Source: Rhizophagus irregularis
Lineage: Eukaryota > Glomeromycota > Glomeromycetes > Glomerales > Glomeraceae
Assembly (NCBI RefSeq): GCF_026210795.1
Contig: NC_089459.1
Coordinates: 1,364,001 to 1,428,000, forward strand
Direction of reading: 5' to 3'
DNA length: 64,000 nt
Shown: positions 7,138 to 50,431 of the stretch, piece after piece
How positions within the stretch are numbered: position 1 is the stretch's first letter
How the letters are laid out: each line of letters opens with the position of its first letter
The notes under the pieces: generated by a model
What the model was told of the DNA's origin: nothing
Databases searched by the model: none
What the model saw: the letters and a program-made list of their open reading frames with translations, nothing else
Position numbers and translations under genes: made by a program

Positions 7138-7958
7138 CAGTCAACTCTCTTTATAGTCACACATTTGGGACAGTCCATATTTGGTGATTATGAAGAGATG
7201 TGACTATATAAAAAATTTCTTATATTTGTATATCATAATTCCGGCCAAAAATTAACATAATTTTAGCCAGAATTATACTTAAAACTTTATTGTATCGTAA
7301 CTTCGCCAATATTAATCGTAGAGAGATGATCTTACCGCCATTCGATTCGTCTTGATGAGACGGTTCTAATGGTATAAAATACGTCGAAATCCAATCACTA
7401 GATTAATTTCCGAAATTAAAAAATATTAATGGTTTTTGTGTAATAACTCTGCCAAAATTGATCCTAGAAAGACGATCTTACTACCATTCGATTCGTCTTG
7501 ATGAGACGAATCTAATGGTATAAAATACATCGAAATCCAATCACTAGATCAATTTCCGAAATTAAAAAATATTAAATGGTTTTTAAGTAATAACTCCGTC
7601 AATATTGATCACAGAGAGATGAGCTTACCACCATTCGATTCGTCTCGATGAGGCGATTCCAACGAGCTATAAATCGTCTTTTTACAATCACTAGGTACCG
7701 AGAAATCTAGCAAAATGTTAAATGGCACAGTGAACGTAAATCAAGAAATATTATAATGCCGATGTTTAACATTTTGTTGAATAACTCGTCAGCCAGTGAT
7801 CGGAAAAGGATAAAACTAAAAAAAAAAACTAAAAACAACTCTCTCCCGTTCTGCTCACTTGACAATATTTACGAAAAAATAAAAAATTTTTTCGGAGTTT
7901 TTTATTACTTTTTCTTTATAATTTCTTTATTTTAGATAACTACTACGACACTTTACAA

Positions 7959-9983
7959 ATGGGTAAAGATAACAAAAAGAAAAATAACCAGTCTAACAAA
8001 GATACTACTTCTAAACGTCCTGCCTCTAGCTCTCCAACTGGCAACGTTTCTGGTCAAGGTTCCTCTATGTCTGGTCCTTCGAACACTCCACCTTCGACCA
8101 CCTCTACTAATAAACGTACCAGAGTCAGTGCCGAGGACTCTGTCATGGATGTTGATAAACCTCTCACGCCTCCTGGCCCCGTTGAGACAACTTCCGATGA
8201 GACACCTTCTCAACCTGATACCTCCTCTCTTGACGCTTCTCAACACGCACCTGCTAATAACAACGATAAAGGCAAAAGCCCAGAAATTACTCCCGCAGTC
8301 TCCTTCCCTGAACGTGCTGCCTCCCCCGACGCGTCCCAAGCTGCAGTACAATCTCAACCTACGCTTTTCTACGCCTCAGCCGCTCCTAATGATGTCGATG
8401 GCTTTTGGAATCACTTCGCTTCGAACCGCGACGCGTGCGACGCGGTTGATCGACAACTTTCCTTGTTCTCCTCTTATGGTAGTCGTGCCACGTGTAGTGG
8501 ATCCAACGATTTGAAGAGGATCATCGTCCACTTCCGAAAAAAGAAGATCTTGACAACGCCACAGCTTCCCCTATGGATTCTTTGTTCGGCTTGCATTTCC
8601 ATGCGTATGACCCCCAGGCTATTAAGGCAGAAGAACACGCACGTACCCTGGTGGTTACCGATATCCCCCTTTTTCTTACTGACGCGCTTTTGCGTGGTAC
8701 CTTTTCTCGTTACGGCAACATTACTCGTTGCCATACCCGTTTGTCTAAACTTTATCGTACTGCATATATTACCTTTGAATCTACTGGTGCTTTACGAAAC
8801 CTCGACTCTACCTGGGGCGTCCTTTGTGGAGGACATTGTTTGCGAATTTGCCCCGCTACTTTTTCTCCTGACCAACGTACTGAAAGACGCGCTTATGTCG
8901 CTTTACTTGCCGGTCTTCCGCGTGGTACTATAGCGGCCGATCTTGCTGAAATTGCCGATGAAATTTCCGCTAAATCTATCAATGTTCCCTTCTCTATGAA
9001 TTCCTACAATCCCAAACCTTACGCCTATTGCCATTTTGCCTCTGAAACGGCTATGGATAATGCTAAATCTATTTCATGTGCCCTTAAGAAAATTGGCCTT
9101 ACCTGGCATTCTCCGGATGAAGTCACTTCTCTTTGTCATCGATGTGGTCGTCCTAATTGTAACCCCTGATCGATGTGGTTCTTCATCTAGACCCAATCGC
9201 CCTTCTCGCCCTTGGCAATCTAACGATAAATTGCGTGCTTTATATAATAAGCATTTACTCCCTTCCTCTCAGCTAAACGACACAACCGTTTTGCCCGCCC
9301 TGATAATAATAATGATGGACAAAGCCGTACCAATGCTTCTCGCCATCGTTCTAAATCCAGACCTAATAACCGACAACAATCTCGTTCTCGTTCTCAACAT
9401 CGACCATGGAATCGTGACAATCTTAACAACAACCATAATAATCAACGTCGTCGTATTCCTGATGCAAATGAACTTGATCACTATGCTCTCGACGGTGGCG
9501 GATGTTACATATCCTGCTCCTCCTACTGTGCTTACTGATTGGAAATCTATTGGTGCTGCTCTTGAAAAAGTAGTTGAAGAATTAGCCCTTCTTACCACAC
9601 AATTTGCTACCACGAACAGCCGCATCACTAATTTGGAATCTGCTATGGCTGCTCGTGCTCCTATTCCAGGACCTTTTGTCGCAAAACCACCTTCCTACAT
9701 CCCTTCCTCTATGCAAGGATGGGATGATACAGCGAATCAAAATAATAATAATATCCTCGTTGATGTTACTTCCCTCCCCTTGCAATCAACAAGTGGATTT
9801 TCCCCGATTCCTCACTTTGCTCCTATTCCTCCTTCCAACGTCGCTCCTTCCTCTCCTATTGATATGGAACAGCGTCTCTCCTCTCTTTCTGATACTGTTG
9901 CCTCTTTGGCTGGCTCGATTAAAGAAGGAATCCAACAAAACAACCTCATCTTAGCTCGGCAACAAGGCCAAGCTAATCAATAA
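7959..9983 (+). pseudogene. LINE copy 1 ORF1 protein (RRM-like, zinc motif, coiled coil), frameshifted
   Basis: It starts ATGGGTAAAGATAAC after a pyrimidine-rich leader. In order it shows a Lys/Ser/Pro-rich N-terminal part and an RRM-like fold (ARTLVVTDIPLF, RTAYITFES). A second RRM-like segment follows (YVALLAGLPRGT, YAYCHFASETAM), then CHRCGRPNC with a further Cys, a basic Arg/Ser/Asn-rich stretch, and a C-terminal helix-rich part (IGAALEKVVEELALL). RRM plus Cys/His knuckles is the layout of LINE ORF1 RNA-binding proteins, which package the element RNA. Compared with the other copies one G is missing near 8546, and an extra base makes a TGA at the zinc motif (about 9167). Confidence 0.8.
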
Positions 9984-10035
9984 TTGTTCTCTTTTTCCCC
10001 CTTCTTTATTACCGTTTTATCAGTGTGTAATAACG

Positions 10036-13000
10036 ATGGACAATAATAAACATAATTTTTCCCCTCACCCCTCTCCCCTTATTAAATTTGGTCAATTAAA
10101 TGTTAATGGTTTATGTTCCCCAGTTCGACAACAACATTTGCTTAATTTTTTTCTTCACTCCTCTTTTGGTGCCTTATCTATTAATGATACATGTCTTTCC
10201 CCTTCGAATGCTAAATTTATTTTTAAAAATGAACACTCCCAACATCACTTTAAGTCCTATTGGGCTTGCTCATCTTCTTCTCGCCCTCACGATGGCGTTG
10301 GAATTTTATTACGAAATCCCCTTCATAAGCACGTTCAAACAATTGATCTCTTGAACGGTCGACTTCTTAAATTAGACTTGTTCTTTCATCAAACTAAAAT
10401 TTCTATTATTTCTATATATTATCCCCCTTCTGGTTCTGTTCATCAATCTATTTGCAATGATCTTATTGCCAAACTTCTTTCTTGGCTCGATTATGCCCGA
10501 GCTAATAATTATTTTGTAGTTATTCTTGGCGACTTCAATGCTGATGTAATCGCTCATTCTAATTATTCACCTAATCATTTTAAGCTTCTTCGCTTGCTTT
10601 CTTCTCGGTTTTTTACCGATCATCAAGCTCTCTCTACAAATGGTCCTGATCCCACTTTCTTTCATGATAATGGATCTTCTAGACTGGATTATATTTGGTC
10701 TTCACCTGGTTTTCCTGCTCCTGGTCTTTTTTCGCAAGTGGTTACTTGCCCGGGTCTTCTTGATCGTCCTTTTACCGATCACAAAGTCCTTACAACTGTT
10801 TTTGACTTTAGCTCTTGTTTGGCTATTTTGGCTAAATCCCGTCTCAAACAAAAAAAAGAAATGCGATATTTTCTTTTCTTACGCTTCCACTTCAGTAACA
10901 ACGGAATAATTTTACCAATCCAAGTGATGATTCTCTTGAGTTTATTTAGATAGACAATATCACCCTAATTTTGATTTCTCTTCCCTTTCTCTTGATCGTA
11001 TGTGGCATGCATTGAAAGCAGCCATCATTGGTGCTGCAATAGAAACTTTACCTTTTCAAAAAGTCTCCAATACACACCGACATTCGTACTCTCCTGAATT
11101 AACCAAACTTATTGCTATTAACAAGTTCTTAGATCGATTTTTATACCGCCTTACTACTCGTCGTTCTAATCGGCCTACTCAGATTGCACAAATGACTGCT
11201 GCTTTGCCCTCCCATCTTGATAATCTTGCATCCTTATTTCCTGATTACTCAGTTCCTACCTATTCTACAACCCCTACATCTGTCTTTATATCGTTTTTAC
11301 GATCACAGAAGAATTTAGTCTCTGCCTTTTTGTCTACTAAATTCGCCCAACACCTTACGGACTCAGTGGAATATTATACTGCACTACGTGACGAACACTT
11401 TTCGAACTCGCTCGGCACCTTTATCGATTCTGCCTTATCAGTAGAAAAACGTTCAATTGTTCTTGACCGTGTCCTGGTTGTCCTGGACTCAACTCCTACC
11501 TTATTAACGGATCCTTCGGATATTAAACAAGCTGCTATTTCTCATTTTCAATCAATTGTTTCTCCTCCGTCCCGTTGGTCCGCTACTCTTCCATCAATTC
11601 ATTTCCCGCCCGATGGCAACAAGCTTACACTCCTCTTGCTAATGTGTCTGCTTCTTTGTACGATCCTGTTTTGGCACCTATTTCTCTACAAGAATGGTCT
11701 GCTGTGATTTCCTCCATGCCAAATAATAAAGCTTCCGGCCCTTCAAAAATTTCTTACGAGATGATTAAACATCTGTCCGGTGAAGCCTTAGATTTCTCTC
11801 TTTTATTGGCCAATACCTGCCTTTCTCGCGGTGATATTCCTGCCGACTGGCGTGAATGGGTGTATCCTATTCCTAAACCTCATGACTTTGATGCTCAACT
11901 CAAGAACACTCGACCTATTACCCTTCTGGAAACAATTCGTAAATGTGTAGTTAAGGTCGTCACAAATCGTCTCTCCAATATCCTTGCTGATGGTAAAATT
12001 CTCCAAGGAGGTAACTTTGCGGGTTTACCTGGTGGTTCTACTGATGTCCCTATCAAAATGCTTGATGCGATTATTCATCAACAAAAACATGACTCTACTG
12101 ATGATCAGGAACTATGGATCGTTTCTCAAGATATCTCTAAAGCTTTTGATTCTATGGATTTAAATATGCTTAAACTAGCTTTAGATAGATTACATATTCC
12201 TGCACTTTTAGTGCGTTTTATTTTGAATCTTTTTACACGACGTAATAATAAGATTATTACTTGTCATGGCGATACAGCTGCTTACAGAGTACGTGTTGGT
12301 ATCGATCAAGGAGAAATCATTTCCCCTCTTCTTTGGGTTATTTATTTGGATCCCTTACTTACTGTTTTGAATCAAGAAGCACGAGATCCTTTTATTTTAA
12401 AATCTTCGGCTCTTTTACATTATTCTCCACTTGAATTTGAACAACACTCTTTACCAATTTCACATTTAACGTTTATGGATGATTCCACACTTATTTCTTC
12501 TTCAAAATCTGGAATAGAAGATCGTCTCTCTATCACTGCTGAATTTTATACTTTAAATAATGTTCAAGCCAATTCAGCAAAATATGTTCTTCTTTCATCC
12601 TCTTCGCCTTCTTCGAAGATTACTTTTGAACTTTCACCTTCCCTTTTAATTTCCGACATATCTCTTTCCCTTTCTTCCTTATCTCTTAAAACTTCATTTC
12701 GTTTTTTAGGAGTTTGGTTTTCTTTGTCCGCCTCTTCTGATTTTGTTCTGAAACAAGCGCGCTCCATGGTTAAAGATATGGCTGCTCTTTTGAGCCCGAA
12801 GAAATTATTAGCACAACATGTAGCCTATCTTTATAATGCTGTCCTTCTTCCGCGACTGGAATTTCGTCTTCAGTACTACCCTTTTCTCTGAAAGTACTAT
12901 TCAATCGATAGTGCTCCTACGTTTTCAGTACTTCAAGAAAGGGTCTGGTCTTGCTGCGACTACCCCGCTGGCCTTATTATTTCTCAAACTTCCATTTTCG

Positions 13001-15413
13001 CTTCAGAATGCTTTTTATCGATTCCTTTCTTCCCATATCGCATCTTGGCAAAAAATTTTCACTCATCCTGATTTCAAGGATTTTGCCCTTTATGCTATCT
13101 CCTATCTTCAAGGATATCTGGGTGCTGAAAGTTGCCCGACTACTATTAACCTAGAACCATGGTCGCAAATTGTTTCTTTACGAACGCATACCTTGTTTAA
13201 TTCGCTATTGTTTTCTTCGCGTTTGAACATCACGTGGTCTTTCTCCTTCCGGCCTCCGAGGCGTGATCTACAACCTGCTTTACCACTCCGATCTCTTCTA
13301 CCACATTCCATTTTTCGGACAAGTTGGAAACTTTGGAAAAACTTGAATATATTTGTGCTTGCTCAGTTGGTTTCTCCTTGTGGACGTTATCTTATGAATT
13401 GGCCCGACCTTCGTTATCTTGGTATCGTTGGTCGTAAAGGACGGATCCCCAATTGGTTTACTTTTATTAATATTAATTTTCTTTCTTCTTCTTCTTCTAC
13501 CTTACTTTTATCTTCATATTTTATTAATTCTTTTTTTACTTTAGCTTCTCCTTGTTTATTAGATCATACTGTTAAAGATTATTCTTTTTATCCTCAATGG
13601 GCTGTTAATGTTGATTCTGCTACTCGAACTTTATCTGTTGGTCGTGTGTGTATCACCTACAAAAAACAAAACTCGGCTATTATGTCTCATTGGCTTCCTG
13701 TATCCTCTTCGGCTGATGAACGATCCTATAATCCTTGTCCTGGTTGTGCTGTTAACATTCCTGCCTTATCCAAGAAATCTGCCATTAAACAGCGCTGTAA
13801 CAGCGAAAAGTGTTTTTTCAATGTTACCCTATCAGAAACTGTGGGCTACCCTACCAGAAATGCCAAAGTTTTCGCGGCTTATCTTCCCATTACTCTATCT
13901 ACTTCCTGGAGTTATGCGACTTCCTTGGCTCTTGTTCATTTTTCAAACGCTTCTCCCGCTCTTTCCCCTCTCTTTAAGGATAGTATCGATAGAATTGAAG
14001 ACACTATTTTACCACTTTCAGTGCAATCTTTGTACACAGATGGTTCGTTCCATCCTGCCAATGATTCTTTGCCTTCTTCTATGACTTCTGCTTGGATTGC
14101 TTCTTGATGATGATGGACTTGTTCTGGAATCTTCTTCCATGCATCTCCCTTCTTACTTTCCTTCCGCTTTGCGTTCCGAAATTTCTGCTGTACTTTTAGG
14201 ACTGAACGCCCTTTCCCGCGATTCATCAATCTCTATTCATACTGATTGTAGTCAGTTAATTTCACTATGGACACGGTTTGTTGATGCTCCTTTCTCACCG
14301 AAGTTGCTCCGAGAACCTAATCATCTTCTCTGGCTTTCTATTCGACAACTTATCATGGATCGTAATCTTAATGTCGAATTGATTAAAGTCCCTGCTCATA
14401 GTGATGATATCTACAATATACAAGCGGATTCCTTGGCAAAAGATGCTCATTCGTCTTTACAACCCACTATTTTACTTTCAACATTTTGTTATGCTCCATG
14501 CTTGTTGACTTTTAATTCCTTGCCTATTGACGTGAATATTCGACATTTTCTCCGCTCTATTGCAGATGCTCGTGCTCTTTTATCTTTCTGTTCACTAGCG
14601 CGTTTTACTGCTCTTGGTGCTCCTTCACTTTTTGATTGGGCTGGTATATATTTTTGCCTTTCACAAATTAAAGGTTTTGCTTCACATAGGAATGGTCGTC
14701 CTGAATTTTGGATCTTCCGCATTAAACTTCTTTTGGATATGTTGCCTACCTTAACTACCCTTCAACAACGAAAACCTTACTTATATTCTCCTGACTGGCT
14801 CTGTCCGCAGTGTAATTCTGCTCCTGAAGATTTGAATCATCTTTGGACTTGTCCTTATATTTTACCGGAATTAAATCCGTGTTTAACGCACCGGTCTGAA
14901 GTCATTAAATTTAGAGATTCTTGTTTATCTTCTTTCCTATCCTTGAAGTCTTTGGATAATTCCTTTCATACCGGTTTCTTTGTTTTGGATTGCTGGAACT
15001 ATGAAGCTCCTTCTCCATCTTGTCTTTGGCTTACTCGAGGATTGTTGCCTGCGCATTTAACGGCATTTTTGAACCAATACTTTCCTCTCTCTGTTATATA
15101 CAAGATTATTTCTCCCCTTCTTAATGACTTCCAAGTCGAATTATATGGTGAAATTTGGCTGTGTCGGAATGTTCTTTTCCATGCTTGGGAGGAGTCGCAG
15201 GGTATCTCGGCTGCTTCCAAATTACGTGGCCCATCTACAAATTCTTTCCCTAATACTACTCCACAACAACACAACTCTTCTTTGGCGACAGTTTCTCAGG
15301 ATTCCTGGATTTCTTGGATATCCTCTTCTATAATTCGGGGTGGATCATGGATCTCGCACTTGGATTTTCTGCGCCGCTTAACAGTTCAACCTCTTAGGAT
15401 TTCTTTCTGGTAA
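10036..15413 (+). pseudogene. LINE copy 1 ORF2: APE endonuclease, reverse transcriptase, RNase H, broken
   Basis: It begins MDNNKHNFS about 50 nt after ORF1. Endonuclease motifs are FGQLNVNGL, VILGDFN, SRLDYIW and FTDHK. Reverse transcriptase motifs are NNKASGPSKISYEMIK, RPITLLE, SQDISKAFDSM, GIDQGEIISPLLW and the catalytic FMDDS. RNase H motifs are SLYTDGSF, ALRSEISAVLLGL, IHTDCSQ and QADSLAKDA. A C-terminal zinc motif is WLCPQC...HLWTC. Against the sister copies there are frameshifts near 10850-10950, 11575, 11857, 12872 and 14100. The protein would nick the target and reverse-transcribe the element RNA there; this copy is dead. Confidence 0.9.
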
Positions 15414-15816
15414 CGGACTAGATTTTTGGATGTTGGATAGTTGACTCACACTGGCCTTCGGGTAAAGTTGGGGTATGCGATTCTGTAATAGTTTAGTTTT
15501 TCTTTGCTTTAATTTATTTTAGTTTAGATTTCTTTACTTGTATGAGTCGTGAAGCTACTCTTTTTATTTTTTATTAGTTTATTTTCTTATTTTTGTAATA
15601 TTGTTCGATTATATCTTCGAAATTTAAAAATATAAATAAAAGATAAAGTCACAAGACTGTTTGTACAGGAAAAGGATAAAACTAAATCAAAACTACTCTC
15701 TCCCGTTCTGCTCACTTGACAATATTTACGAAAAAAATAAAAAATTTTTTCGGAGTTTTTTATTACTTTTTCTTTATAATTTCTTTATTTTAGATAACTA
15801 CTACGACACTTTACAA

Positions 15817-17824
15817 ATGGGTAAAGATAACAAAAGAAAAATAACCAGTCTAACAAAGATACTACATCTAAACGTCCTGCCTCTAGCTCTCCAACTGGCA
15901 ACGTTTCTGGTCAAGCTTCTACGTCTAGCCCTTCGAACACTCCACCTTCGACCACCTCTACTAATAAACGTACCAGAGTCAGTGCTGATGACTGCTGCAT
16001 GTTGATAAACCTCTCACGCCTTCTGGCCCCTGTTGAGACAACTTCCGCCGAGATACCTTCTCAACCTCGCTACCTCCTCTCGACGCTTCTCAGCACGCAC
16101 CTGCTAATAATAACGATAAAGGCAAAAGCCCTGAAATTACTCCCCGCAGTCTCTTTCCCCGAACGTGCTGCCTCTCCAGACGCGTCCCAAGCTGCAGTAC
16201 AATCTCAACCTACACTTTTCTACGCCGGCCGCTCCTGAACGACGATGCCGACTTTGACTCACTTCGCTTCGAACCGCGACGCGTGCGACGCGGTTGATCG
16301 ACAACTTTCCTTGTTCTCCTCTTATGGTAGTCGTGCCACTGTAGTGGATCCAACGATTTGAAGAGGATCATCGTCCACTTCCGAAAAAAGGATGATTCGA
16401 CACAGCCACAGCTTCCCCTATGGATTCTTTTGCTTCAGCACATTTCCATGCATATGACCCCCAGGCTATTAAAGCTGATGAACACGCGCGTACCCTGGTG
16501 GTTACCGACATCCCCCTTTTTATAACTGACGCTCTTTTGCGTGGTACCTTTTCCCGTTACGGCAATATTGTTCGCTGCCATACCCGTTTATCTAAACTTT
16601 ATCGTACTGCATACATTACCTTTCAATCTACTGGCGCTTTACAGAACCTCGACTACCTGGGGCGTCCTTTGTGGAGGACATTGTTTGCGAATTTGCCCCG
16701 CTTCTTTCTCTCCCCGACCAACGTGCCGAAAGACGCGCTTATGTTGCTTTACTTACGGTCTTCCACGTGGTACTATAGCGGCCGATCTTGCTGAAATTGC
16801 CGATGAAATTTCCGCTAAATCTATCAATGTTCCCTTCTCTATGAATTCCTACAATCCCAAACCTTACGCCTATTGCCATTTTGCCTCCGAAACGGCTATG
16901 GAAAATGCTAAATCTATTTCATGCGCCCTCAAGAAAGTTCGGCCTTACCTGGCATTCTCGGATGAAGTCGCTTTCTCTTGTCATCGATGTGGTCGCCCTA
17001 ATTGTAACCCCTGATCGATGTGGTTCTTCGTCTAGACCTAATCGCCCTTCTCGCCCTTGGCAATCTAACGATAAATTACGTGCTTTATATAACAAGCATC
17101 TACCTCCTTCTCATCCTGCTAAACGACATAACCGTTTTGCCCGCCCTGATAACAATAATGATGGACAAAGCCGTACCAATGCTTCTCGCCATCGTTCTAA
17201 ATCCAGACCTAATAACCGACAACAATCTCGTTCTTGTTCTCAACGCCGACCATGGAATCGCGATAATCTCAATAATAATAATAATGATCAACGTCGTCGC
17301 ATTCCTGACGAAAAAACTTCGATCACTACGCTCACGGCATGGATGTTACATACCCTGCTCCTCCTACTGCGCTTACTGATTGGAAATCTATTGGTGCTGC
17401 TCTTGAAAAAGTAGTTGAAGAATTAGCCCTTCTTACCACACAATTTGCTACCATGAACAGCCGCATCACTAATTTGGAATCTGCTATGGCTGCTCGTGCT
17501 CCTATTCCTGGCCCTTTTGTTACTAAACCTCCTTCCTACATCCCTTCCTCTATGCAAGGATGGGATGATACAGTGAATCGAAATGATAATAATATCCTCG
17601 TTGATGTTAATTCTCCTCCTTTGCAATCAACAAGTGGTTTTTCACCGATTCCTCATTTTGCTCCCATTCCACCTTCCAACGTCGCTCCTTCCTCCCCTAT
17701 TGATATGGAACAGCGTCTCTCCTCTCTTTCTGAAACTGTTGCCTCTTTGGCTGGCTCGATAAAAGAAGGAATCCAACAAAACAACCTCATCTTAGCTCGG
17801 CAACAAGGCCAAGCTAATCAATAA
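15817..17824 (+). pseudogene. LINE copy 2 ORF1, multiply frameshifted
   Basis: Homologous to ORF1 of copies 1 and 3 from ATGGGTAAAGATAAC to the shared end LARQQGQANQ. It is the most damaged of the three: small indels near 15835, 15990, 16075, 16230, 16340, 16400 and 16650 repeatedly shift frame in the N-terminal and RRM-like parts. The extra base before the zinc motif (about 17010) is shared with copy 1. The C-terminal part from 17339 is intact. Sharing that one defect suggests copies 1 and 2 descend from closely related sources. Confidence 0.78.
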
Positions 17825-17873
17825 TTGTTCTCTTTTTCCCCCTTCTTTATTACCGATTTATCAGTGTGTAATA

Positions 17874-20800: not shown

Positions 20801-23264
20801 TGCTGCGACTACCCCGTTGGCCTTATTATTTCTCAAACTTCCATTTTCGCTTCAGAATGCTTTTTATCGATTCCTTTCTTCCCATATCGCATCTTGGCAA
20901 AAAATTTTCACTCATCCTGATTTTACAGATTTTGCCCTTTATGCTATTTCCTATCTTCAAGGATACTTGGGTGCCGAAAGTTGCCCGACTACTATTAACC
21001 TAGAACCATGGTCGCATATTGTTTCTTTACGAACGCATACCTTGTTTAATTCGCTTTTGTTTTCTTCGCGTTTGAACATCACGTGGTCTTTCTCCTTCCG
21101 GCCTCCGAGGCGTGATCTACAACCTGCTTTACCACTCCGATCTATTCTACCACATTCCATTTTTCAAACAAGTTGGAAACTTTGGAAAAACTTGAATATA
21201 TTTGTGCTTGCTCAATTGGTTTCTCCTTGTGGACGTTATCTTATGAATTGGCCTGACCTTCGTTATCTTGGCATCGTTGGTCGTAAAGGACGGATCCCTA
21301 ATTGGTTTACTTTTATTAATAATAATTTTCTTTCTTCTTCCTCTTCTACTTTACTTTTATCTTCATATTTTATTAATTCTTCTTTTACTTTAGCTTCTCC
21401 TTGTTTATTAGATCATACTGTTAAAGATTATTCTTTTTATCCTCAATGGGCTATTAATCTTGACTCTGCTACTCAAACTTTATCTGTTGGTCGTGTGTGT
21501 ATCACTTATAAGAAACAAAACTCGGCTATTATGTCTCATTGGCTTCCTGTTTCTACTGTGGCTGATGAACGATCCTATAACCCTTGTCCTGGTTGTGCGG
21601 TTAACATTCCTGCCTTATCCAAGAAATCTGCCATTAAACAGCGCTGTAACAGCGAAAAGTGTTTTTTCAATGTTACCCTATCAGAAACTGTGGGTTACCC
21701 TACCAGAAATGCCAAAGTTTTCGCGGCTTATCTTCCCATTACTCTATCTACTTCATGGAGTTATGCGACTTCCTTGGCTCTTGTTCATTTTTCAAACGCT
21801 TCTCCCGCTCTTTCTCCTCTCTTTAAGGATAGAATGGATAGAATTGAAGATACTATTTTACCACTTTCGGTGCAATCTTTGTATACAGATGGTTCGTTCC
21901 ATCCTGCCAATGATTCTTCGCCTTCTTCCATGACTTCTGCTTGGATTGCTCTTGATGATGATGGACTTGTTCTGGAATCTTCTTCCATGCATCTCCCTTC
22001 TTACTTTCCTTCCGCTTTGCGCTCTGAAATTTCTGCTGTTCTATTAGGATTGAATGCTCTTTTCCGTGATTCGTCAATCTCTATTTATACTGATTGTAGT
22101 CAGTTAATTTCACTATGGACACGGTTTGTTGATGCTCCTTTCTCACCGAAGTTGCTCCGAGAACCTAATCATCTTCTTTGGCTTTCTATTCGACAACTTA
22201 TCATGGATCGTAATCTTAATGTCAAATTGATTAAAGTCCCTGCTCATGGCGATGATATCTACAATATACAAGCGGATTCTTTGGCAAAAGATGCTCATTC
22301 GTCTTTAAAACCCACTACTTTACTTTCAACATTTTGTTATGCTCCATGCGTGTTGACTTTTAACTCCTTGCCTATTGACGTGAATATTCGACATTTTCTC
22401 CGCTCTATTGCAGATGCTCGTGCTCTTTTATCTTTCTGTTCACTTGCGCGTTTTACTGCTCTTGGTGCTCCTTCACTTTTTGATTGGGCTGGTATATATT
22501 TTTGCCTTTCACAAATTAAAGGTTTTGCTTCACATAGGAATGGTCGTCCTGAATTTTGGATCTTCCGCATTAAACTTCTTTTGGATATGTTGCCTACCTT
22601 AACTACTCTTCAACAACGTAAACCTTACTTATATTCTCCTGACTGGCTCTGTCCGCAGTGTAATTCTGCTCCTGAAGATTTGAATCATCTTTGGACTTGT
22701 CCTTATATTTTACCGGAATTAAATCCTTGTTTAACACACCGGTCTGAAGTCATTAAATTTAGAGATTCTTGTTTATCTTCTTTCCTATCCTTGAAATCTT
22801 TGGATAAATCCTTCCGTACCGATTTCTTTGCTTTGGATTGCTGGAACTATGAAGCTCCCTCTTCATCTTGTCTTTGGCTCACTCGAGGATTGTTGCCTGC
22901 GCATTTAACGGCATTTTTGAACCTATACTTTCCTCTCTCTGTTATATACAAGACTATTTCTCCCCTTCTTAATGACTTCCAAGTCGCATTATATGGTGAA
23001 ATTTGGCTGTGTCGGAATGTTCTTTTCCATGCTTGGGAGGAGTCGCAGGGTATCTCGGCTGCTTCCAAATTACGTGGCCCATCTACAAATTCTTTCCCTA
23101 ATACTACTTCTCCACAACAACACAACTCTTCTTTGGCGTCAGTTTCTCAGGATTCCTGGATTTCTTGGATATCCTCTTCTATAATTCGGGGTGGATCTTG
23201 GATCTCGCACTTGGATTTTCTGCGCCGCTTAACAGTTCAACCTCTTAGGATCTCTTTCTGGTAA
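17874..23264 (+). pseudogene. LINE copy 2 ORF2 (APE-RT-RNase H), three frameshifts
   Basis: ATGATGGACAAC opens the frame. One extra base in a TCTTCTTCTTC run (about 18120) shifts it inside the endonuclease. A second slip at about 19086 and a third at about 19880 (between KILQGGNFAGLPG and STDVPIK) follow. From 19890 to 23264 the frame is fully open and covers most of the reverse transcriptase (SQDISKAFDSM, GIDQGEIISP, FMDDS). It also covers RNase H (YTDGS, RSEIS, YTDCSQ, QADSLAKDA), the WLCPQC zinc motif and the common C-terminus. Of the three copies it has the longest intact stretch. Confidence 0.9.
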
Positions 23265-23662
23265 CGGACTGGATTTTTGGATGTTCGGATAGTTGACTCA
23301 CACTGGCCTTCGGGTAAAGTTGGGGTATGCGATTCTGTAATAGTTCAGTTTTTCTTTGCTTTAATTTTATTTTAGTTTAGATTTCTTTACTTGTATGAGT
23401 CGTGAAGCTACTCTTTTTTATTTTTTATTAGTTTATTTTCTTATTTTTGTAATATTGTTCGATTATTTTTCGAAGTTCAAAATATAAATAAAAGATAAAG
23501 TCACAAGACTGTTTGCACAGGAAAAGGATAAAACTAAAACTAACTCTCTCCCGTTCTGCTCACTTGACAATATTTACGAAAAAAATAAAAAATTTTTTCG
23601 AAGTTTTTTATTACTTTTTCTTTATATTTTCTTTATTTTAGATAACTGCGACACTTTACAAA

Positions 23663-25683
23663 ATGGCTAAAGATAACAAAAAGAAAGATAACAAGTCTGA
23701 CAAAGATACTACTTCTAAACGTCCTGCCTCTAGCTCTCCAACTGGCAACGTTCCTGGTCAAGGTTCCTCTATGTCTGGTCCTTCGAACACTCCACCTTCG
23801 ACCACCTCTACTAATAAACGTACCAGAGTCAGTGCTGACGACTCTGTCATGGATGTTGATAAACCTCTCACGCCTCCTGGCCCTGTTGAGACAACTTCCG
23901 CTGAGATACCTTCTCAACCTGATACCTCCTCTCTTGACGCTTCTCAACACGCACCTGCTAATAATAATGATAAAGGCAAAAGCCCTGATATTACTCCCGC
24001 AGTTTCCTTCCCAGAACGTGCTGCCTCCCCAGACGCGTCCCAAGCTGCAGTACAATCTCAACCTACACTTTTTTACGCCTCGGCTGCTCCTAATGACGTC
24101 GAGGATTTTTGGACTCACTTCGCTTCGAACCGTGACGTGTGCGATGCGGTTGATTGACAACTTTCCTTGTTCCCCTCTTATGGTAGTCATGCCACGTGTA
24201 GTGGATCTAACGATTTGAAGAGGATCATCGTTCACTTCCGAAAAAAGGAAGATCTTGTCAAAGCCGTAGCTTCCCCTATGGATTCTTTGTTTGGCTTGCA
24301 TTTCCATGCATATGACCCCCAGGCTATTAAAGCAGATGAACACGTGCGTACCCTGGTGGTTACCGACATCCCCCTTTTTATAACTGACGCTCTTTTGCGT
24401 GGTACCTTTTCCCGTTACGGCAATATTGTTCGCTGCCATACCCGTTTATCTAAACTTTATCGTACTGCATACATTACCTTTGAATCTACTGGTGCTTTAC
24501 AGAACCTCGACTCTACCTGGGGCGTCCTTTGTGGAGGACATTGTTTGCGTATCTGCTCCGCTACTTTCTCACCTGAATAACGCGCTGAAAGACGCGCTTA
24601 TGTTGCTTTACTTGCCGGTCTCCCGCGTGGTACTATAGCGGTCGATCTTGCTGAAATTGCCGATGAAGTTTCCGCTAAATCTATCAATGTTCCCTTCTCT
24701 ATGAATTCTTACAATCCCAAACCTTACGCCTATTGCCATTTTGCCTCTAAAACGGCTATGGAAAATGCTAAATCTATTTCATGTGCCCTCAAGAAAGTTG
24801 GCCTTACCTGGCATTCTCCGGATGAGTCACTTCTCTTTGTCATCGATACGATCGCCCTAATTGTAACCCCGATCGATGTGGTTCTTCATCTAGACCTAAT
24901 CGCCCTTCTCGCCCTTGGCAATCTAATGATAAATTACGTGCTTTATATAACAAGCATCTACCTCCTTCTCATCCTGCTAAACGACATAACCGTTTTGCCC
25001 GCCCTGATAACAATAATGATGGACAAAGCCGTACCAATGCTTCTCGCCATCGTTCTAAATCCAGACCTAATAACTGACAACAATCTCGTTCTCGTTCTCA
25101 ACATCGACCATGGAATCGCGACAATCTTAATAACAACAATAATAATCTACGTCGTCGTATTCCTGATGCAAATGAACTTGATTACTATATTGATGGCATG
25201 GATGTTACATACCCTGCTCCTCCTACTGTGCTTACTGATTGGAAATCTATTGGTGCTGCTCTTGAAAAAGTAGTTGAAGAATTAGCCCTTCTTACCACAC
25301 AATTTGCTACCATGAACAGCCGCATCACTAATTTGGAATCTGCTATGGCTGCTCGTGCTCCTATTCCTGGCCCTTTTGTCACTAAACCTCCTTCCTACAT
25401 CCCTTCCTCTATGCAAGGATGGGATGATACAGTGAATCGAAATGATAATAATATCCTCGTTGATGTTAATTCTCCTCCTTTGCAATCAACAAGTGGTTTT
25501 TCCCCAATTCCTCATTTTGCTCCCATTCCACCTTCCAACGTCACCCCTTCCTCTCCTATTGATATGGAACAGCGACTCTCCTCTCTTTCTGACACTGTTG
25601 CCTCTTTGGCTGGCTCGATTAAAGAAGGAATCCAACAAAACAACCTCATCCTAGCTCGGCAACAAGGCCAGGCTAATCAATAA
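23663..25683 (+). pseudogene. LINE copy 3 ORF1, stop codons and one frameshift
   Basis: It starts ATGGCTAAAGATAAC. The reading frame is better kept than in copies 1 and 2. TGA replaces CGA after DAVD (24155-24157), TAA replaces CAA after SPE (24578-24580), one base is lost near 24825, and TGA replaces CGA in the Asn/Arg/Gln-rich region (about 25075). At the zinc motif this copy has CCCCGATCGATG without the extra base seen in copies 1 and 2. That shows the motif originally ran on into an Asp-Arg-Cys-Gly segment. Confidence 0.8.
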
Positions 25684-25731
25684 TTGTTCTCCTTTTCCCC
25701 TTCTTTATTACCGATTTATCAGTGTGTAATA

Positions 25732-28700
25732 ATGATGGACAACAAAAAACATTATTTTTCTCCTCACCCCTCTCCCCTTATTAAATTTGGTCAATTAAAT
25801 GTTAATGGTTTATGTTCTCCAGTTCGACAACAACATTTACTTAATTTTTTTCTTCACTCTTCCTTTGGTGCTTTATCTGTTAATGATACGCGTCTTTCCC
25901 CTTCAAATGCTAAATTTATTTTCAAAAACGAACACTCCCAACATCACTTTAAGTCCTATTGGGCTTGTTCATCTTCTTCTCGCCCTCATGATGGTGTTGG
26001 TATTTTGCTACGTAATTCTCTTCATAAGCATGTCCAAACAATTGATCCTTGGAAAGGTCGACTTCTTAAATTAGATTTGTTTTTTCATCAAACCAAAATC
26101 TCTATTATTTCTATATATTACCCTCCTTCTGGTTCTATTCATCAATCTATTTGTAATGATCTTATTACTAAACTCCTCTCCTGGCTTGATTATACCAGAA
26201 ATAACAATTATTTTGTAATTATTCTTGGCGACTTTAATATTGATGAAGTCGCTCATTCCCATTATTCAGCTAATCATTTTAAGCTTCTTCGCTTGCTTTC
26301 TTCTCGGTTTTTTACCGATCATCAAGCTCACTCTTCTACAAATGGTCCTGATCCCACCTTCTTTCATGATAATGGATCTTCTAGACTGGATTATATTTGG
26401 TCTTCACCTGGTTTTCCTGCCCCTGGTCTTTTTTCGCAAGTGGTTACTTGCCCGGATCTCCTTGATCGTCCTTTTACAGATTACAAAGTTCTTACAACTA
26501 TCTTTGACTTCAGTTCTTGCCTGGCTGTTTTGGCTAAATCTCGTCTCAAACAAAAAAAAGAAATGCGTACTATTTTCTCTTACGCTTCCACTTCAGTTGA
26601 ACAATGGAATAATTTTACCATTGAAGTAGATGATTCTCTTGGAGTTTATTTAGATAGACAATATCACCCTAATTTTGATTTCTCCTCTCTTTCTCTTGAT
26701 CGTATGTGGCATGCATTGAAAGCTGCCATACTTAGTGCTGCAATTGAAACATTACCCTTTCAAAAAGTCTCCAATACACACCGACATTCGTACTCTCCTG
26801 AATTAACTAAACTTATTGCTATTAACAAGTTTTTAGATCGATTTTTATATCGCCTTACTACTCGTCGTTCCAATCGGCCTACTCAAATTGCGCAAATGAC
26901 TGCTGCTTTGCCCTCCCATCTTGAGAATCTTACATCCTTGCTTCCTGATTATTTAGTTCCTACCTATTCTACATCCCCTGTATCTGTATTTAAATCGTTT
27001 TTACGATCACAGAAGAATTTAGTTTCTGCCTTTTTATCTACTAAATTTGCCCAACACCTTACGGACTCAGTGGAATATTATACTGCACTACGTGACGAAC
27101 ACTTTTCGACCTCGCTTGGCACCTTTATAGATTCTGCCCTATCAGTAGAAAAACGCTCGATTGTTCTTGATCGTGTCCTGGTTGTACCGGACTCAACTCC
27201 TACTTTATTAACGGATCCTTCGAATATTAAACAAGCTGCTATTTCTCATTTTCAATCGATTGTTTGTCCTCCGTTGGTCGCTATTCTTGTCCATCCCCAC
27301 TTGGTTTCCCATGACGAACTGCTTATCTCTTACAAATGTGTACGCTATTATATGATCCTGTTTTGGCGCCTATTTCCCTACAAGAATGGTCTGCTGTGAT
27401 TTCCTCCATGCCAAATAACAAAGCTTCCGGCCCTTCAAAAATTTCTTATGAGATGATTAAACACTTGTCCGTGAAGCCTTGGATTTTTCTCTTTTACTTG
27501 CCAATACTTGCCTTTCTTTGCGTGATATTCCTGCTGACTGGCGTGAAGCCGTGGTTTATCCTATTCCTAAACCTCATGACTTTGATGCTCAACTTAAGAA
27601 CACCCGACCTATTACCCTTCTGGAAACTGTTCGAAAATGTGTAGTTAAGGTCGTCACGAATCGTCTTTCCAACATCCTTGCTGATAATAAAATTCTCCAA
27701 GGTGGTAATTTTGCTGGTTTACCTGGTAGTTCTACGGATGTCCCTATTAAGATGCTTGATGCGATTATTCATCAACATAAACATGACTCTACTGATGATC
27801 AGGAACTATGGATCGTTTCTCAAGATATCTCTAAAGCTTTTGATTCTATGGATTTAAATATGCTTAAATTAGCTTTAGATAGATTACATATCCCTGCACT
27901 TTTAGTGCGATTTATTTTGAATCTTTTTACACGACGAAATAATAAGATTATTACTTGTCATGGCGATACAGCTGCTTATAGAGTACGTGTTGGTATCGAT
28001 CAAGGAGAAATCATTTCCCCTCTTCTTTGGGTTATTTATTTGGATCCCTTACTTACTATTTTGAATCAAGAAGCACGAGATCCTTTTATTTTAAATTCTT
28101 CAGCTCTTCTAAATTATTCTCCACTTGAATTTAAACAACATTCCTTACCAATTTCACATTTAACGTTTATGGATGATTCTACACTTATTGCCTCTTCAAA
28201 GTCCGGAATAGAAGATCGTCTTTCTATTACTGCTGAATTTTATACTTTAAATAATGTTCAAGCCAATTCTGCAAAATATGTTCTTCTTTCATCCTCTTCG
28301 CCTTTTTCAAAGATTATTTTTGAACTTTTACCTTCTTCTTTAGTTTCCGATACTTCTCTTTCCCTTTCCTCTTTATCTCTTAATACTTCATTTCGTTTCT
28401 TAGGAGTTTGGTTTTCCTTGTCCGCCTCTTCCGCTTTTGTTTTGAAACAAGCGTGCTCCATGGTCAAAGATATGGCTGCTCTTCTGGGCCCGAAGAAATT
28501 ATTAGCTCAACATGTGGCCTATCTCTATAATGCTGTCCTTCTTCCGCGATTGGAATTTCGTCTTCAAACTACCCTTTTCTCTGAAAGTACTATTCAATCA
28601 ATAGTTAAACCTATGTTTTCAGTACTTCGAAGAAAAGCTGGACTTGCTGCGACTACTCCGTTGGCTTTGTTATTTCTTAAACTTCCTTTTTCGATTCAGA

Positions 28701-31111
28701 ATGCTTTTTATCGATTCCTTTCTTCCCATATCGCATCTTGGCAAAAAATTTTCATTCACCCTGACTTCAAAGATTTTGCCCTTTATACTATCTCCTATCT
28801 TCAAGGATATTTGGGTGCTGAAAGTTGCCCGACTACTATTGACTTAGAACCATGGTCACAAGTCATTTCTTTACTGATGCATACTTTGTTTAATTCATTA
28901 TTGTTTTCTTCGCGATTGAATATCACGTGGTCCCTCTCTTTCTGACCTCTGAGGCAGGACTTGCAACCAGCTTCGCCACTCTGATCCATCTTACCGCATT
29001 CGATTTTTCAGACTGCTTGGAAACTTTGGAAAAATTTGAATCTTTTTGTCCTTGCTCAATTGGTTTCCCCTTGTGGACGATATCTTATGAATTGGCTTGA
29101 CCTTCGATACCTTGGTATCGTTGGTCGTAAAGGACGGATTCCTACTTGGTTCAATTTTATTAAAAATAATTTTCTTTCTTCTCCTTTTTCTTCTTTATTG
29201 TTGCCTTTATATTTTATTAATTCTTCTTTTACTTTAGCTTTCCCTTGTTTATTAGATCATACTGTTAAAGATTATTTTTTTTATCCTCAATGGGCTATTA
29301 ATTTTAATTCCGCTACCCAAACTTTATCTGTGGGCCGTGTTTGTATCACCTACAAGAAACAAGATTCTGCTATCATGTCTCATTGGCTTCCTGTATCCTC
29401 CTCCGCTGATGAACGATCTTACAATCCTTGTCCTGGATGTTCCTTTAATATCCCCGCCTTATCCAAGAAATCCGCAATTAAGCAACGCTGTAATAGCGAG
29501 AAGTGTTTTTTTAATGTAATCTTATCAGAAACCGTAGGCTATCCTACCAGAAATGCCAAAGTCTTTGCGGCTTACCTTCCGATTACTTTATCTACTTCAT
29601 GGAGTTATGCTACTTCTCTGGCTCTTGTTCATTTGTCAAAACCGTCTTTATCTACTTTTTCCACTCTCTCTTCTCCCTTGAAGGATAAGACTAACGATAT
29701 TGTTTTACCACTTTCCGTGCAATCTCTGTATACTGATGGTTCTTTTCATGTTGCTACGGACTCTTCACCTGCTTCCATAACCTCTGCTTGGCTTGCCCTT
29801 GATAATGATGGACTTATTCTTGAATCTTCATCTTTGCAACTTTTTTCATGTCTTCCTTCAGCCTTACGTTCTGAAATCTATGCTGTTGTATTAGGACTAA
29901 ACGCTCTTTCCCGTGGCTCTTCAATCTCCATTCATACTGATTGTAGTCAGCTTATCTCATTATGGAAACGCTTTGTTGATGCTCCCTTCTCACCGAAGTT
30001 GCTTCGTGAACATAATCATCTCCTTTGGCTTTCTATTCGATATCTTATTATGGATCGCGACCTTAAGGTTGATTTGATTAAAGTCCCTGCTCATGGCGAT
30101 GACATCTATAATATGCAAGCGGATTCATTGGCAAAAGATGCTCATTCGTCTTCCCCACCTAATATTTCACCTTTGGCATTTTGTTATGCTCCGTGCTTGT
30201 TATTATTTAATTCTTTGCCTATTGACATGAATATTCGTCATTTCCTCCGCTCTATAGCTGATGCTCGTGCTCTTTTATCTTTCTGTTCACTGGCACGGTT
30301 TACTGCTTTTGGTTCCCCTTCACTTTTTGATTGGGCTGGTATATATTTTTGCCTTTCACAAATTAAAGGTTTTGCTTCGCATAAGAATGGTCGTCCTGAA
30401 TTCTGGATCTTCCGTATCAAACTCCTTTTGGATATGTTGCCTACTTTAACTACTCTTCAACAACGCAAACCTTATTTATATTCTCCCGATTGGCTTTGTC
30501 CACAATGCAACTCAGCTCCTGAAGATTTGAATCATCTTTGGACTTGTCCTTATATTCTTCCAGATTTAAATCTGTGTTTGACACATCGTTCTGAAATTGT
30601 CAAATTCAGAGATTCTTGTTTATCTTCGTTTTTATCTTTGAAGCCTTTGGATATTATTTTCCAAACTGAATTCTCTGCTTTAGAATGTTGGAACTATGAA
30701 ACTCCTTCTTTGTCCTGTCTTTGGCTTACTAGAGGATTGTTGCCTGCGCATTTAACAGCATTTTTAAACCAACACTTTCCTCTCTCTGTCATATACAAGA
30801 TTATTTCTCCTCTCCTTAATGACTTTCAAGTCGAATTGTATGGTGAAATTTGGCTGTGTCGGAATGTTCTTTTCCATGCTTGGGAAGAGTCGCAGGGTAT
30901 CTCGGCTGCTTCCAAATTACGTGGCTCATCTATAAATTCTTCTCCTATTGTTTCTTCTCCACATACAAATAACTCTTCTTTGGCGACAGTTTCTCAGGAT
31001 TCCTGGATTTCTTGGATATCCTCTTCTATAATTCGGGGTGGATCATGGATCTCGCACTTGGATTTTCTGCGCCGCTTAACAGTTCAACCTCTTAGGATTT
31101 CTTTCTGGTAA
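25732..31111 (+). pseudogene. LINE copy 3 ORF2 (APE-RT-RNase H), about 1,790 codons, broken
   Basis: Open from MMDNKKHYFS through the complete endonuclease (GDFN, SRLDYIW, FTD-Y-K where the other copies have FTDHK) to about 27265. A scrambled stretch at 27270-27345 and a one-base loss near 27470 break the thumb-side linker. The reverse transcriptase (27479-28942) is then open with SQDISKAFDSM and FMDDS. Two in-frame TGA codons follow (28943-28945, 28982-28984). From 29036 to 31111 the RNase H and zinc-motif part is open. The change of His to Tyr in the FTDHK motif would by itself be expected to cripple the endonuclease, since this His is the catalytic base in APE-type enzymes. Confidence 0.9.
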
Positions 31112-31380
31112 CGGACTGGATTTTTGGATGTTGGATAGTTGACTCACACTGGCCTTCGGGTAAAGTTGGAGTATGCGATTCTGTAATAGTCTAGTTTTTC
31201 TTTGCTTTAAATTTATTTTAGTTTAGATTTCTTTACTTGTATGAGTCGTGAAGCTACTCTTTTATTTTTATTAGTTTATTTTCTTATTTTTGTAATATTG
31301 TTCGTTTGAATTTTCGATGTTAAAATATAAATAAAAATAAAGTCATAAGACTGTTTGCACAGGGAAAAGGATAAAACTAA

Positions 31381-31473
31381 GGGTTGGTCGGCCTATATCT
31401 CGGTAGTTATACTTGGGGCAGGCTGCATTAACATAGTATGGTGAGGTCGCAGGTTCGATTCCCATGACCACGG
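31381..31473 (+). other. tRNA-like module 1 (A box and B box)
   Basis: A box TATCTCGGTAG matches 9 of 11 consensus positions; B box GGTTCGATTCC is perfect; spacing is 56 bp, typical of tRNA genes. The acceptor and T stems pair poorly, so this is a tRNA-derived pol III promoter rather than a working tRNA gene. Confidence 0.6.
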
Positions 31474-31645
31474 AAATAAAAAGAATTTTACTGCGGACGC
31501 TACAACCAATAGCGTGAAGGTACAGGGATTAGTGTAGTTGGACTGCATCATGGCGAATTAGTGTGTACGGTTAGGCCGCACATTTCAACTAAAGGTCATG
31601 GTATCCTTCTAACGTTTCCTATGAGGCTATTGGTATGTGCGCAGT

Positions 31646-31975
31646 CCTGTCCTTGAGGTCACTACTATACCTTGGGAGGGACTTCCTGTTCAGGCGGTCA
31701 CTCCACGATACCACTGGGGCGCAGTAATGGCTAGATGGTCGTCCTAGATGGTAAAGCTGAGGGTGCAATGTCTTAGTGGTAGTTTGACCTTCTGTTAGGT
31801 CTTAGACCAACCAAGGTGTTCGTACACAGAACAGGTAGCATGGTTATGGGGTTCGATTCCCCACTTCTTGGGTCCTGGTATGATCCCCGGTGTTCCGATA
31901 CCCACTATAAGCGATCCTGGACAGAAGCCTGCTACTTCCTGTCCGAGTGGTCACTACAAAGTATACCACTTGGGG
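31646..31975 (+). repeat. Three internal repeats, CCTGT..C...GGTCACT....ATACC..TGGG
   Basis: Related segments at 31646-31678, 31685-31720 and about 31938-31975 share a CCTGT(C/T)C start, a GGTCACT core, an ATACC block and a TGGG end. They lie between and just after the tRNA-like modules and may be relics of an internal duplication of the SINE body. Confidence 0.55.
31762..31870 (+). other. tRNA-like module 2 (A box, B box, perfect T arm)
   Basis: A box TGTCTTAGTGG matches 10 of 11 consensus positions. B box GGTTCGATTCC lies 81 bp downstream within a perfect 5-bp T stem. The long spacing would need an intron or insert in the anticodon region, and the acceptor stem does not close, so it is better read as tRNA-derived than as a functional tRNA. 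Confidence 0.55.
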
Positions 31976-32373
31976 TAAACAACTGTACTATCGGTGCTAG
32001 GTAATCGCGGGCTGTAGTGGCCTTTGAATGAGACTTAGTACCTAAAATGGTGGTATGTAAGGGTACTAGATGGTTAATGTTACCTGTCGAAAGTCCTCCA
32101 TGAAAGTAGATGCTCTCTAAAGGTCGTTAAATAAATTGAGTATCAGTATCATGCAATGGGTATAGGATGAGTAGACGGCGTGTACCTAGCTTCAGATCAG
32201 CCTATAATGGCCCGATGGGGGATGTCTTCTATAGTGGTGCTGTTACCTGAGGAATTAAGTACTCGGTATAATGGTTGCCCATTGAAGATGATAGGACACA
32301 GACCCGAGATTAGTCTTATAAGAGGCAATGGGTGGTCTGGCCGTAAACATTAGCAAAGGAAAAGGATAAAACT

Positions 32374-32579
32374 CAATGGGTATAGGATGAGTAGGCGGCG
32401 TGTACCTAGCTTTAGATCAGGCCTAAAATGGCCCGAATGGGGGATGCTTCTTATAGTGGTGCTGTTCTTGCGGGAATTAAGTGCTCGGTATAATGGTTGC
32501 CCATTGAAAATGATAGGACACAGACCCGAGATTAGTCTCATAAGAGGCAATGGGTGGTCTGGCCGTATACACTTGCAAA
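32374..32579 (+). mobile_element. SINE-like unit, 5'-truncated copy 2 (206 bp)
   Basis: Begins CAATGGGTATAGGATGAG directly after a 16-bp target copy, matching the long copy from about 32155 to its end. It finishes CACTTGCAAA before the next target copy. The truncated 5' end with a full 3' end is what target-primed reverse transcription produces. Confidence 0.75.
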
Positions 32580-32595
32580 GGAAAAGGATAAAACT

Positions 32596-32807
32596 TCAGT
32601 ATAATGGGTATAGGATGAGTAGGCGGCGTGTACTGGTCTTGGATCGGACTAAAAAATAAAAAATGCGATGAATGTCTTCTATAGTGGTGCTGTTACCTGA
32701 GGAATTAAGTACTCGGTATAATGGTTGCCCATTGAAGATGATAGGACACAGACCCGAGATTAGTCTCATAAGAGGCAATGGGTGGTCTGGCTGTAAACAC
32801 TTGCAAA
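32596..32807 (+). mobile_element. SINE-like unit, 5'-truncated copy 3 (212 bp)
   Basis: Begins TCAGTATAATGGGTATAGG, several bases further upstream in the SINE than copy 2, so its truncation point is different. It has an A-rich replacement near 32650-32665 (AAAAAATAAAAAATG) and ends CACTTGCAAA next to the last 16-bp target copy. Confidence 0.75.
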
Positions 32808-33130
32808 GGAAAAGGATAAAACTAGCAATGATTCGATTCGTGCTCGAGACGATTCTAACAAGCTATGATACATCTTTGTACGATTATTAGATGCCAAGTT
32901 ATTTAATATATTCTTTATATACCTGTGATTATAAATGGTTCTTTTTAATATAAGATGTTTGAGGATAGGTGTGATAGTGACTATAGATAGATTGTGACTA
33001 TATAGGATAGATTTTAATAATAAAGTATTTTGAACATTCAACTGGTGTGACTATATAGTAGAATGTGACTATAACGGGAGTAACTATAGAGGGAGTTGAC
33101 TGTACTTTTAATTAAAAAAAATGTTTACAC

Positions 33131-50189: not shown

Positions 50190-50431
50190 AAGGTTACTTG
50201 CCGAAACCTAGGGGTTTAGGCAAGATGGCGTTTCACCAAAAAGTGAAATTCTGCCAAAACTATATTAAAGTTATATTAAAAAACGGGCGAAACTTTGGAG
50301 AAAGGCGAAACTGCCGAAACTTATTATAAATGCCGAAACTGCCAAAACTCTGCCGAAACTATAATAAATCTATAGTAAAATTTTGACGAAACTAATCGTA
50401 GGATTTTGAAGAGGTTTAGACAAGCAACCTT
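50190..50431. mobile_element. MITE copy C (same family as 1467-1710)
   Basis: AAGGTTACTTGCC at the left and GACAAGCAACCTT at the right, with the body matching copies A and B throughout. Target duplication not clean. It lies just upstream of a decayed coding remnant. Confidence 0.8.

Follow-up and report, generated by a model that had tools for sequence, protein, structure and literature searches.

In the genome of Rhizophagus irregularis, a tandem array of LINE and SINE-like retroelements is very probably understood as the work of a site-specific LINE that would insert by target-primed reverse transcription into a pogo-like DNA transposon, the duplicated target being hit again by LINEs, SINEs and LINE-ended composites so that arrays arise; a sister LINE family would proceed likewise. 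The array lies in the window, by which we mean the whole stretch of 64,000 nucleotides analysed here (C31:1364001-1428000), and the genome searched was the 146,748,485-bp assembly of 32 contigs. The 16-mer that separates the elements is a target site within a pogo-like TIR DNA transposon of ∼959 bp, and it belongs to neither the LINE nor the SINE.

As the first-pass annotation had it, the 16-mer occurs exactly seven times in the window, identical each time, and each neighbouring pair encloses one retroelement, three LINEs and then three SINE-like units, in uniform orientation (Table 1); all seven copies are on the plus strand. At up to three mismatches the window contains 14 matches to the 16-mer, compared with a maximum of 6 in 100 shuffles, and the whole genome holds 467 exact copies (218 plus, 249 minus) against none of the reversed letters used as control. 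Reading of the junctions confirmed that the three LINEs differ at their 5′ ends. The different starts claimed for the two short SINE units are also real, with an offset of only about ten bases that makes them a weak point when taken alone. The window's host transposon spans 7138-33102, that is, 959 bp when the array and the extra site copies are subtracted; a TA (7136-7137) stands just outside its left part, which includes a 146-bp tandem repeat (7298-7659). Rfam at the gathering threshold returned no match in the whole window, so that no part of it passes the cut-off for any RNA family described to date. Three other features of the window are recorded for completeness: an inverted repeat just outside the host transposon (33203-33355; 70-nt arms, 89% complementary, 13 nt apart), a DDE_1 pogo-type transposase fragment left of the array (4292-4564, minus strand; C31:1368292-1368564; E 1.4e-18), and a 27-28-bp minisatellite unit, AAACTGCCGAAACTTAGGAGAAATGCCG, found twice, 49 kb apart (1559-1637 and 50281-50349).

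Table 1. Features of the array and of its host transposon, in window coordinates
Feature	Position	Strand	Basis or remark
Host transposon, left part; TIR CAGTCAACTCTCTTTATAGTCAC	7138-7801	+	Aligned with 10 empty copies elsewhere
Site 3, empty in the window; target of the sister LINE family, TAATCACCAAATAT on minus strand	7177-7190	-	Occupied 130 times elsewhere; duplicated, flanking the LINE in L128
Site 2, empty in the window; GTAAAAAGACGATTTA on minus strand	7670-7685	-	SINE and LINE insertions at this sequence elsewhere
Site 1, target-site duplication copy 1	7802-7817	+	Exact 16-mer; alignment with empty copies
LINE copy 1, 7850 bp, reading frames broken	7818-15667	+	
Target-site duplication copy 2	15668-15683	+	Exact 16-mer
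LINE copy 2, 7836 bp; longest open frame 1155 aa (19797-23264)	15684-23519	+	
Target-site duplication copy 3	23520-23535	+	Exact 16-mer
LINE copy 3, 7827 bp, reading frames broken	23536-31362	+	
Target-site duplication copy 4	31363-31378	+	Exact 16-mer
SINE-like element, full length, 979 bp	31379-32357	+	Family defined from L003
Target-site duplication copy 5	32358-32373	+	Exact 16-mer
SINE-like element, 5′-truncated, 206 bp	32374-32579	+	
Target-site duplication copy 6	32580-32595	+	Exact 16-mer
SINE-like element, 5′-truncated, 212 bp	32596-32807	+	
Target-site duplication copy 7	32808-32823	+	Exact 16-mer
Host transposon, right part, ending GTAACTATAGAGGGAGTTGACTG; TA at 33103-33104	32824-33102	+	Aligned with empty copies

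Ten empty copies from elsewhere and the two flanks of the window array, when joined, align as one element that starts with CAGTCAACTCTCTTTATAGTCAC and ends with GTGACTATAGAGGGAGTTGACTG, with TA outside. Beyond these ends the flanks differ between copies, except for another repeat, some way to the right, that is common to L112 and L120. Both TIRs with the TA are present in nine of the ten empty copies (L119 is without the left end), and the joined window flanks agree. TIR ends at up to three mismatches number 1,114 genome-wide; the left and right TIRs show 2 base differences and both are counted, which brings the copy number of the host nearer half of that figure. Fourteen DDE_1 transposase loci were fetched, and 5 of them bear a TIR related to that of the host (at most 6 mismatches of 25), which suggests a non-autonomous host transposon of pogo-like type. 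Four of the five matches start with TACAGTCAACTCTC and one locus (L161) matches at both ends, and given that the 14 loci are short, the absence of the TIR from the others shows little.

The flanks were read at the first 100 listed of the 467 exact 16-mers (contigs C1-C8), and all 100 have only the host transposon, a LINE or a SINE on each side. The 16-mer is thus part of the host repeat, because the flanks of every copy read could be assigned on both sides. From left to right, and with the LINE-ended composite counted as LINE, the 100 sites comprise 23 empty in the host, 12 host to LINE, 11 host to SINE, 20 SINE to host and 7 LINE to host, together with the element-to-element junctions LINE to SINE (11), SINE to SINE (11), SINE to LINE (4) and LINE to LINE (1). 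Sites picked by the 16-mer cannot reveal insertions elsewhere, and the search was for that reason also begun from the element ends, of which the genome has 342 for the LINE and 295 for the SINE (3′ ends at up to three mismatches; controls 2 and 0, respectively). On C1-C8, 35 LINE ends are listed, 11 adjoining a listed exact 16-mer, and 20 of the remaining 24 were read; the corresponding figures for the SINE are 48 listed, 22 adjoining, and 20 of 26 read. Copies at unrelated duplications, named beforehand as counter-evidence, were not encountered among these 40 ends (0 of 20 LINE and 20 SINE ends), all of which stand at one of three sites in the host. Site 1, the 16-mer there being either variant or unlisted, accounts for 15 LINE and 16 SINE ends; a second site, GTAAAAAGACGATTTA, in opposite orientation, for one LINE and four SINEs; and a third, TAATCACCAAATAT, near the left TIR, for four LINE ends that terminate in TTTGCTCA. 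What follows the 3′ end is the host transposon in 21 cases and another of these elements in 19.

Sites 1 and 2 have AGTGATYGKAAAARGA in common, across the first nick, and target duplications also flank insertions at site 2 (L093/L004) and at site 3 (L128). Site 2 is little used (41 matches at up to two mismatches, 10 of them exact; control 12), and the control for the occupied copies of site 3 gave 0. Individual host copies display various states of occupancy: one has a SINE at site 2 and site 1 still empty (G000:C1:213346-214477), one has both sites filled, site 2 by SINEs and site 1 by a LINE (C5:3060524-3061667), and one, L114 (G000:C1:3983052-3984472), has a short insertion of about 74 alignment columns at site 3, with ATATTTGGTGATTAT duplicated and site 1 empty; the 3′ end of that insertion resembles the SINE end.

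At site 1 the LINE and SINE 3′ ends are followed by the 16-mer or by one of its variants, as would equally be expected if the 16-mer were a terminal part of both elements (at the 3′ or both ends) and no target duplication, a condition that the first-pass annotation had itself set against its reading. However, 23 of the 100 listed exact copies are without an adjoining retroelement, near-exact empty sites (at most 3 mismatches of the 35-base empty site) number 236 against a control of 0, the variants track the locus and not the element, and the same LINE and SINE end is found beside GTAAAAAGACGATT at site 2. Already refuted by the empty sites, the 16-mer as an element terminus deserves practically no credence.

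Target duplication, by comparison, agrees with the distribution of site variants. Eleven loci with a variant site were examined and six of them are readable (L131, L133, L136, L137 and L140, with left ends not at the guessed place, were omitted). The duplication comes from the host copy, because the site mutation is common to both sides of the insertions at five of the six readable loci, these being L130/L072, L132/L077, L134/L097/L087, L135/L107, and L138 with L090, L098, L099 and L100. In the third of these sets the common base is the second, the first differing in L087; L099 has one further change of its own, and in L135 the left site copy stands between LINE and SINE. The exception is L139/L102, with a variant not common to both sides. 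The GC, GT and GAAT variants are present at empty sites as well.

At the other boundary of the elements, the 3′ junction abuts the 16-mer exactly in 48 of 54 element ends (BLAST classification), and 6-29 variable nucleotides precede the start of the LINE or composite at 10 junctions. Variable 5′ sequence combined with a fixed 3′ end is the signature of target-primed reverse transcription, as established for R2. Among 16 such 5′ junctions (the 10 LINE or composite starts, the three window LINEs, L130, L132 and L138), four, namely those of the composite L036 and of L047, L054 and L138, contain an additional, incomplete target copy. The RNA probably had its start upstream, within the target copy belonging to the donor, since the extra copies in L138 (GGAT; local site GATT) and L047 (GAAT; local site GGAT) differ from the local variant.

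From this anatomy we infer a sequence of enzymatic steps. The LINE would nick one sequence inside copies of the pogo-like TIR transposon and insert by target-primed reverse transcription. The first, primer-strand nick would be precise, falling at site 1 between GATC and GGAAAA, and it is predicted to lie before TAATCACC at site 3; the second, as read from the SINE junctions, would be placed some 14-21 bp downstream, most often 16. The site would thereby be duplicated, presenting a fresh target at each end of the insertion, and later LINEs, SINEs and the LINE-ended composite would enter either copy in one orientation to build head-to-tail arrays. In favour of this reading, of the 44 sites that neighbour one another at 9 kb or less, 43 lie on one strand. 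The sister LINE family would use another site of the same transposon in like manner.

The proteins are those of a LINE. ORF1 (673 aa, L122) has an RRM, and ORF2 (1795 aa without internal stop, L124) combines an AP-type endonuclease, a reverse transcriptase (RT) and an RNase H, with Exo_endo_phos and RVT_1 over the Pfam cut-off and L1 ORF2p as best PDB match (3e-20). Judged from these domains, the element is classed as an AP-endonuclease non-LTR retrotransposon, and it has the target-site duplications, the 5′ truncation and the fixed 3′ end of a LINE, with truncated copies ranging from about 20 bp (L015) up to full length. The endonuclease by itself gave a single weak PDB match (E 0.22), for which reason we assign neither a structural relative nor a clade. 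Recent activity is likely because several places have RT copies in open frames longer than 1,800 codons, the matched part being free of stops (e.g., C29:313014, C19:1827367); in the window, frameshifts interrupt all three LINEs.

Head-to-tail order and a common duplication would also be predicted if, following a single insertion, unequal crossing-over or local duplication had been the main source of the arrays, with the intervening 16-mers as junctions copied along. The ancestry of the tandem neighbours is non-local, however. In comparison with five copies on other contigs, the window LINEs, mutually 90.4-94.6% identical (1-2, 94.6%; 1-3, 90.4%; 2-3, 91.2%), are about as near to the distant copies as to each other, LINE 2 being closest to a C5 copy (96.6%) and LINE 3 to a C6 copy (91.7%); re-insertion into a regenerated site, the explanation already preferred in the first-pass annotation, is favoured for this reason. 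SINE pairs on one strand and within 5 kb share 76.2% identity on average (11 pairs) vs 77.8% for the rest (584), with gaps counted as differences and truncated copies included. Some local duplication may have occurred, in that LINE 1 is closest to LINE 2, by 0.08 points (94.62 vs 94.54% for the C5 copy), and a SINE pair on C8 reaches 96.8% identity; these are also the similarities that crossing-over would explain. Yet tandem neighbours are on the whole not mutual closest relatives, the arrays mix LINEs, differently truncated SINEs and composites, the 5′ junctions differ from copy to copy, and the window's three LINEs followed by three SINE units contain no repeated block, all of which makes crossing-over as the main source very improbable. 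Arrays of 8-kb repeats are hard to assemble, and an assembly artefact might be considered. The full-length copies differ, however, by 3-10%, which exceeds long-read consensus error, the junctions bear 5′ sequences of their own, and the same architecture recurs in 18 occupied chains that are complete, many being short and composed of SINEs; we regard an artefactual origin as exceedingly improbable.

Re-insertion was also considered quantitatively. A Polya urn in which all 16-mers, old and regenerated, are equally hit predicts an empty fraction of 0.480, compared to 0.479 observed and 0.338 under Poisson, the fit being to exact 16-mers in one sample of 100 of 467 sites. Its input was 23 empty sites, 23 left and 27 right boundaries (mean taken) and 27 inner junctions. 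Among the 41 chains complete in exact sites, 23 hold no element, 13 one, 1 two, 3 three and 1 four; two-element chains are thus rarer than the urn predicts (1 of 41 vs about 5 expected), and long chains are under-seen. Taken together, sequence-specific insertion and re-insertion into the regenerated duplication are borne out by the genome-wide evidence. The first-pass annotation was right to propose site-specific tandem arrays outside rDNA and telomeres; beyond it are the pogo-like transposon as the target, the use of two further sites, and the participation of a sister LINE family and a composite element.

The sister family is represented in full by L128, with 62-63% DNA identity to eight full LINEs of the window family. 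Both families have AP-type endonucleases, and their ORF2 proteins (L127 for the sister, L124 for the window family) share 80% (RT) and 74% (endonuclease) identity. Among the 133 RT copies scored, out of 989 candidates, 59 have 82-85% RT identity to the query and were assigned to the sister family, and 74 have 87-100%. A listed exact site-3 junction (100 of the 130 are listed) lies 2.5-6 kb downstream of 41 of the 59 sister copies; the remaining 18 were fetched and gave 12 readable 3′ ends, all at site 3 or a variant, and 6 unreadable. The sister family also forms tandem arrays, of ∼8.0 kb period, because 10 of 24 same-strand neighbours within 12 kb, among the 100 listed junctions of 130, are 7.9-8.1 kb apart. 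On C12, L143-L145 are three consecutive site-3 junctions, and the sister copies L171 and L177 have a common site variant, TAATCAACAAATAT.

The SINE, of 977-979 bp, is inserted at sites 1 and 2, and in L088, L164, L165, L167 and L174 the sister LINE at site 3 has SINE sequence after it. Near its 5′ end is GGTTCGATTC, which we take to be B-box-like. The LINE would mobilise the SINE, and the case for this partnership is made from the shared sites, because the two are alike in only about 7 terminal bases (TTGCAMA) and ARAGORN and Rfam called no tRNA in the SINE loci; BLAST of the SINE 3′ tail against the LINE gave no match. The composite L129, of 3,166 bp, matches the LINE at its two ends, over 96 bp (82%) and 437 bp (88%), and its middle shows no LINE match; within L129:1-3401 it contains two ORFs, neither with a Pfam match over the cut-off, and it inserts at site 1. 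A similar 3.2-kb unit is found at G000:C2:3825033-3828292.

Regarding known systems, Tx1L of Xenopus laevis is an AP-type endonuclease LINE that targets a sequence inside a DNA transposon, Tx1D. The LINE described here is alike in both respects and is unlike Tx1L in its fungal host, the three sites per transposon, the two LINE families, the SINE and composite partners and the tandem arrays; presumably it differs also by its RNase H domain. In 28S genes, R1 and R2 likewise partition one multicopy host sequence between two LINE families. R2 has a restriction-like endonuclease, unlike the pair described here, in which both families are AP-type and related. MoTeR of Magnaporthe oryzae, with a telomere target and a restriction-like endonuclease, is a precedent for target-specific non-LTR elements in a fungus. 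Such elements are the subject of a title in the reference list of PMC8869645, and a passage of the same article names 'other TEs' among LINE targets, the references cited there taking in the paper on the Tx1L endonuclease. For Drosophila R1, tandem copies separated by a 14-bp duplication are attributed, in a passage of PMC2718515, to insertion into an earlier copy's duplication, with a precise first nick and a variable second one. The stacks described here are similarly built, with ∼16 bp instead of 14 bp, in a pogo-like TIR transposon and not in 28S rDNA, and unlike R1 they are joined by SINEs. Elements of the R1 clade have AP-type endonucleases, and most reported target-specific AP-type LINEs belong to the Tx1 and R1 clades, with transposons among the known targets (as stated in part of PMC4640811). 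The 3.2-kb composite L129 resembles the SIDEs, non-autonomous elements made of LINE ends (according to a section of PMC3414825). SINE and LINE families are named in a curated TE paper on R. irregularis, and in its main text 'target site', 'tandem' and 'nested' occur 0 times (PMC11075540, main text only). According to the same paper, chromosome-level assemblies of other strains are available. Each ingredient thus has precedent, Tx1L in a DNA transposon and R1 in tandem arrays, given that R1 arrays form by insertion into the duplication and that transposons or 'other TEs' are listed as LINE targets. Among open-licence papers, we found neither a prior report for this host nor the combination of a fungal host with a transposon shared by two LINE families, SINEs and a composite.

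Lastly, the system has importance as a self-renewing safe haven for retroelements that is other than rDNA, telomere or microsatellite, and it explains some of the genome's LINE and SINE content. Many empty, singly filled and multiply filled sites in one genome provide a countable test of target choice by site-specific elements. The related endonucleases, with different targets in the same transposon, constitute a natural pair for studying how an AP-type endonuclease reads DNA, a question relevant to programmable insertion tools. More speculatively, and with our own judgement leaning somewhat against it, the whole may represent an ecosystem on one DNA transposon that spreads landing pads, where two related LINE families would divide the pads, SINEs and LINE-ended composites would share them, and each insertion would regenerate the pad, with arrays growing as an urn process without limit. 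Should the LINE belong to neither the Tx1 nor the R1 clade, which its RNase H domain permits, site specificity would have arisen independently in an AP-type LINE, in fungi.
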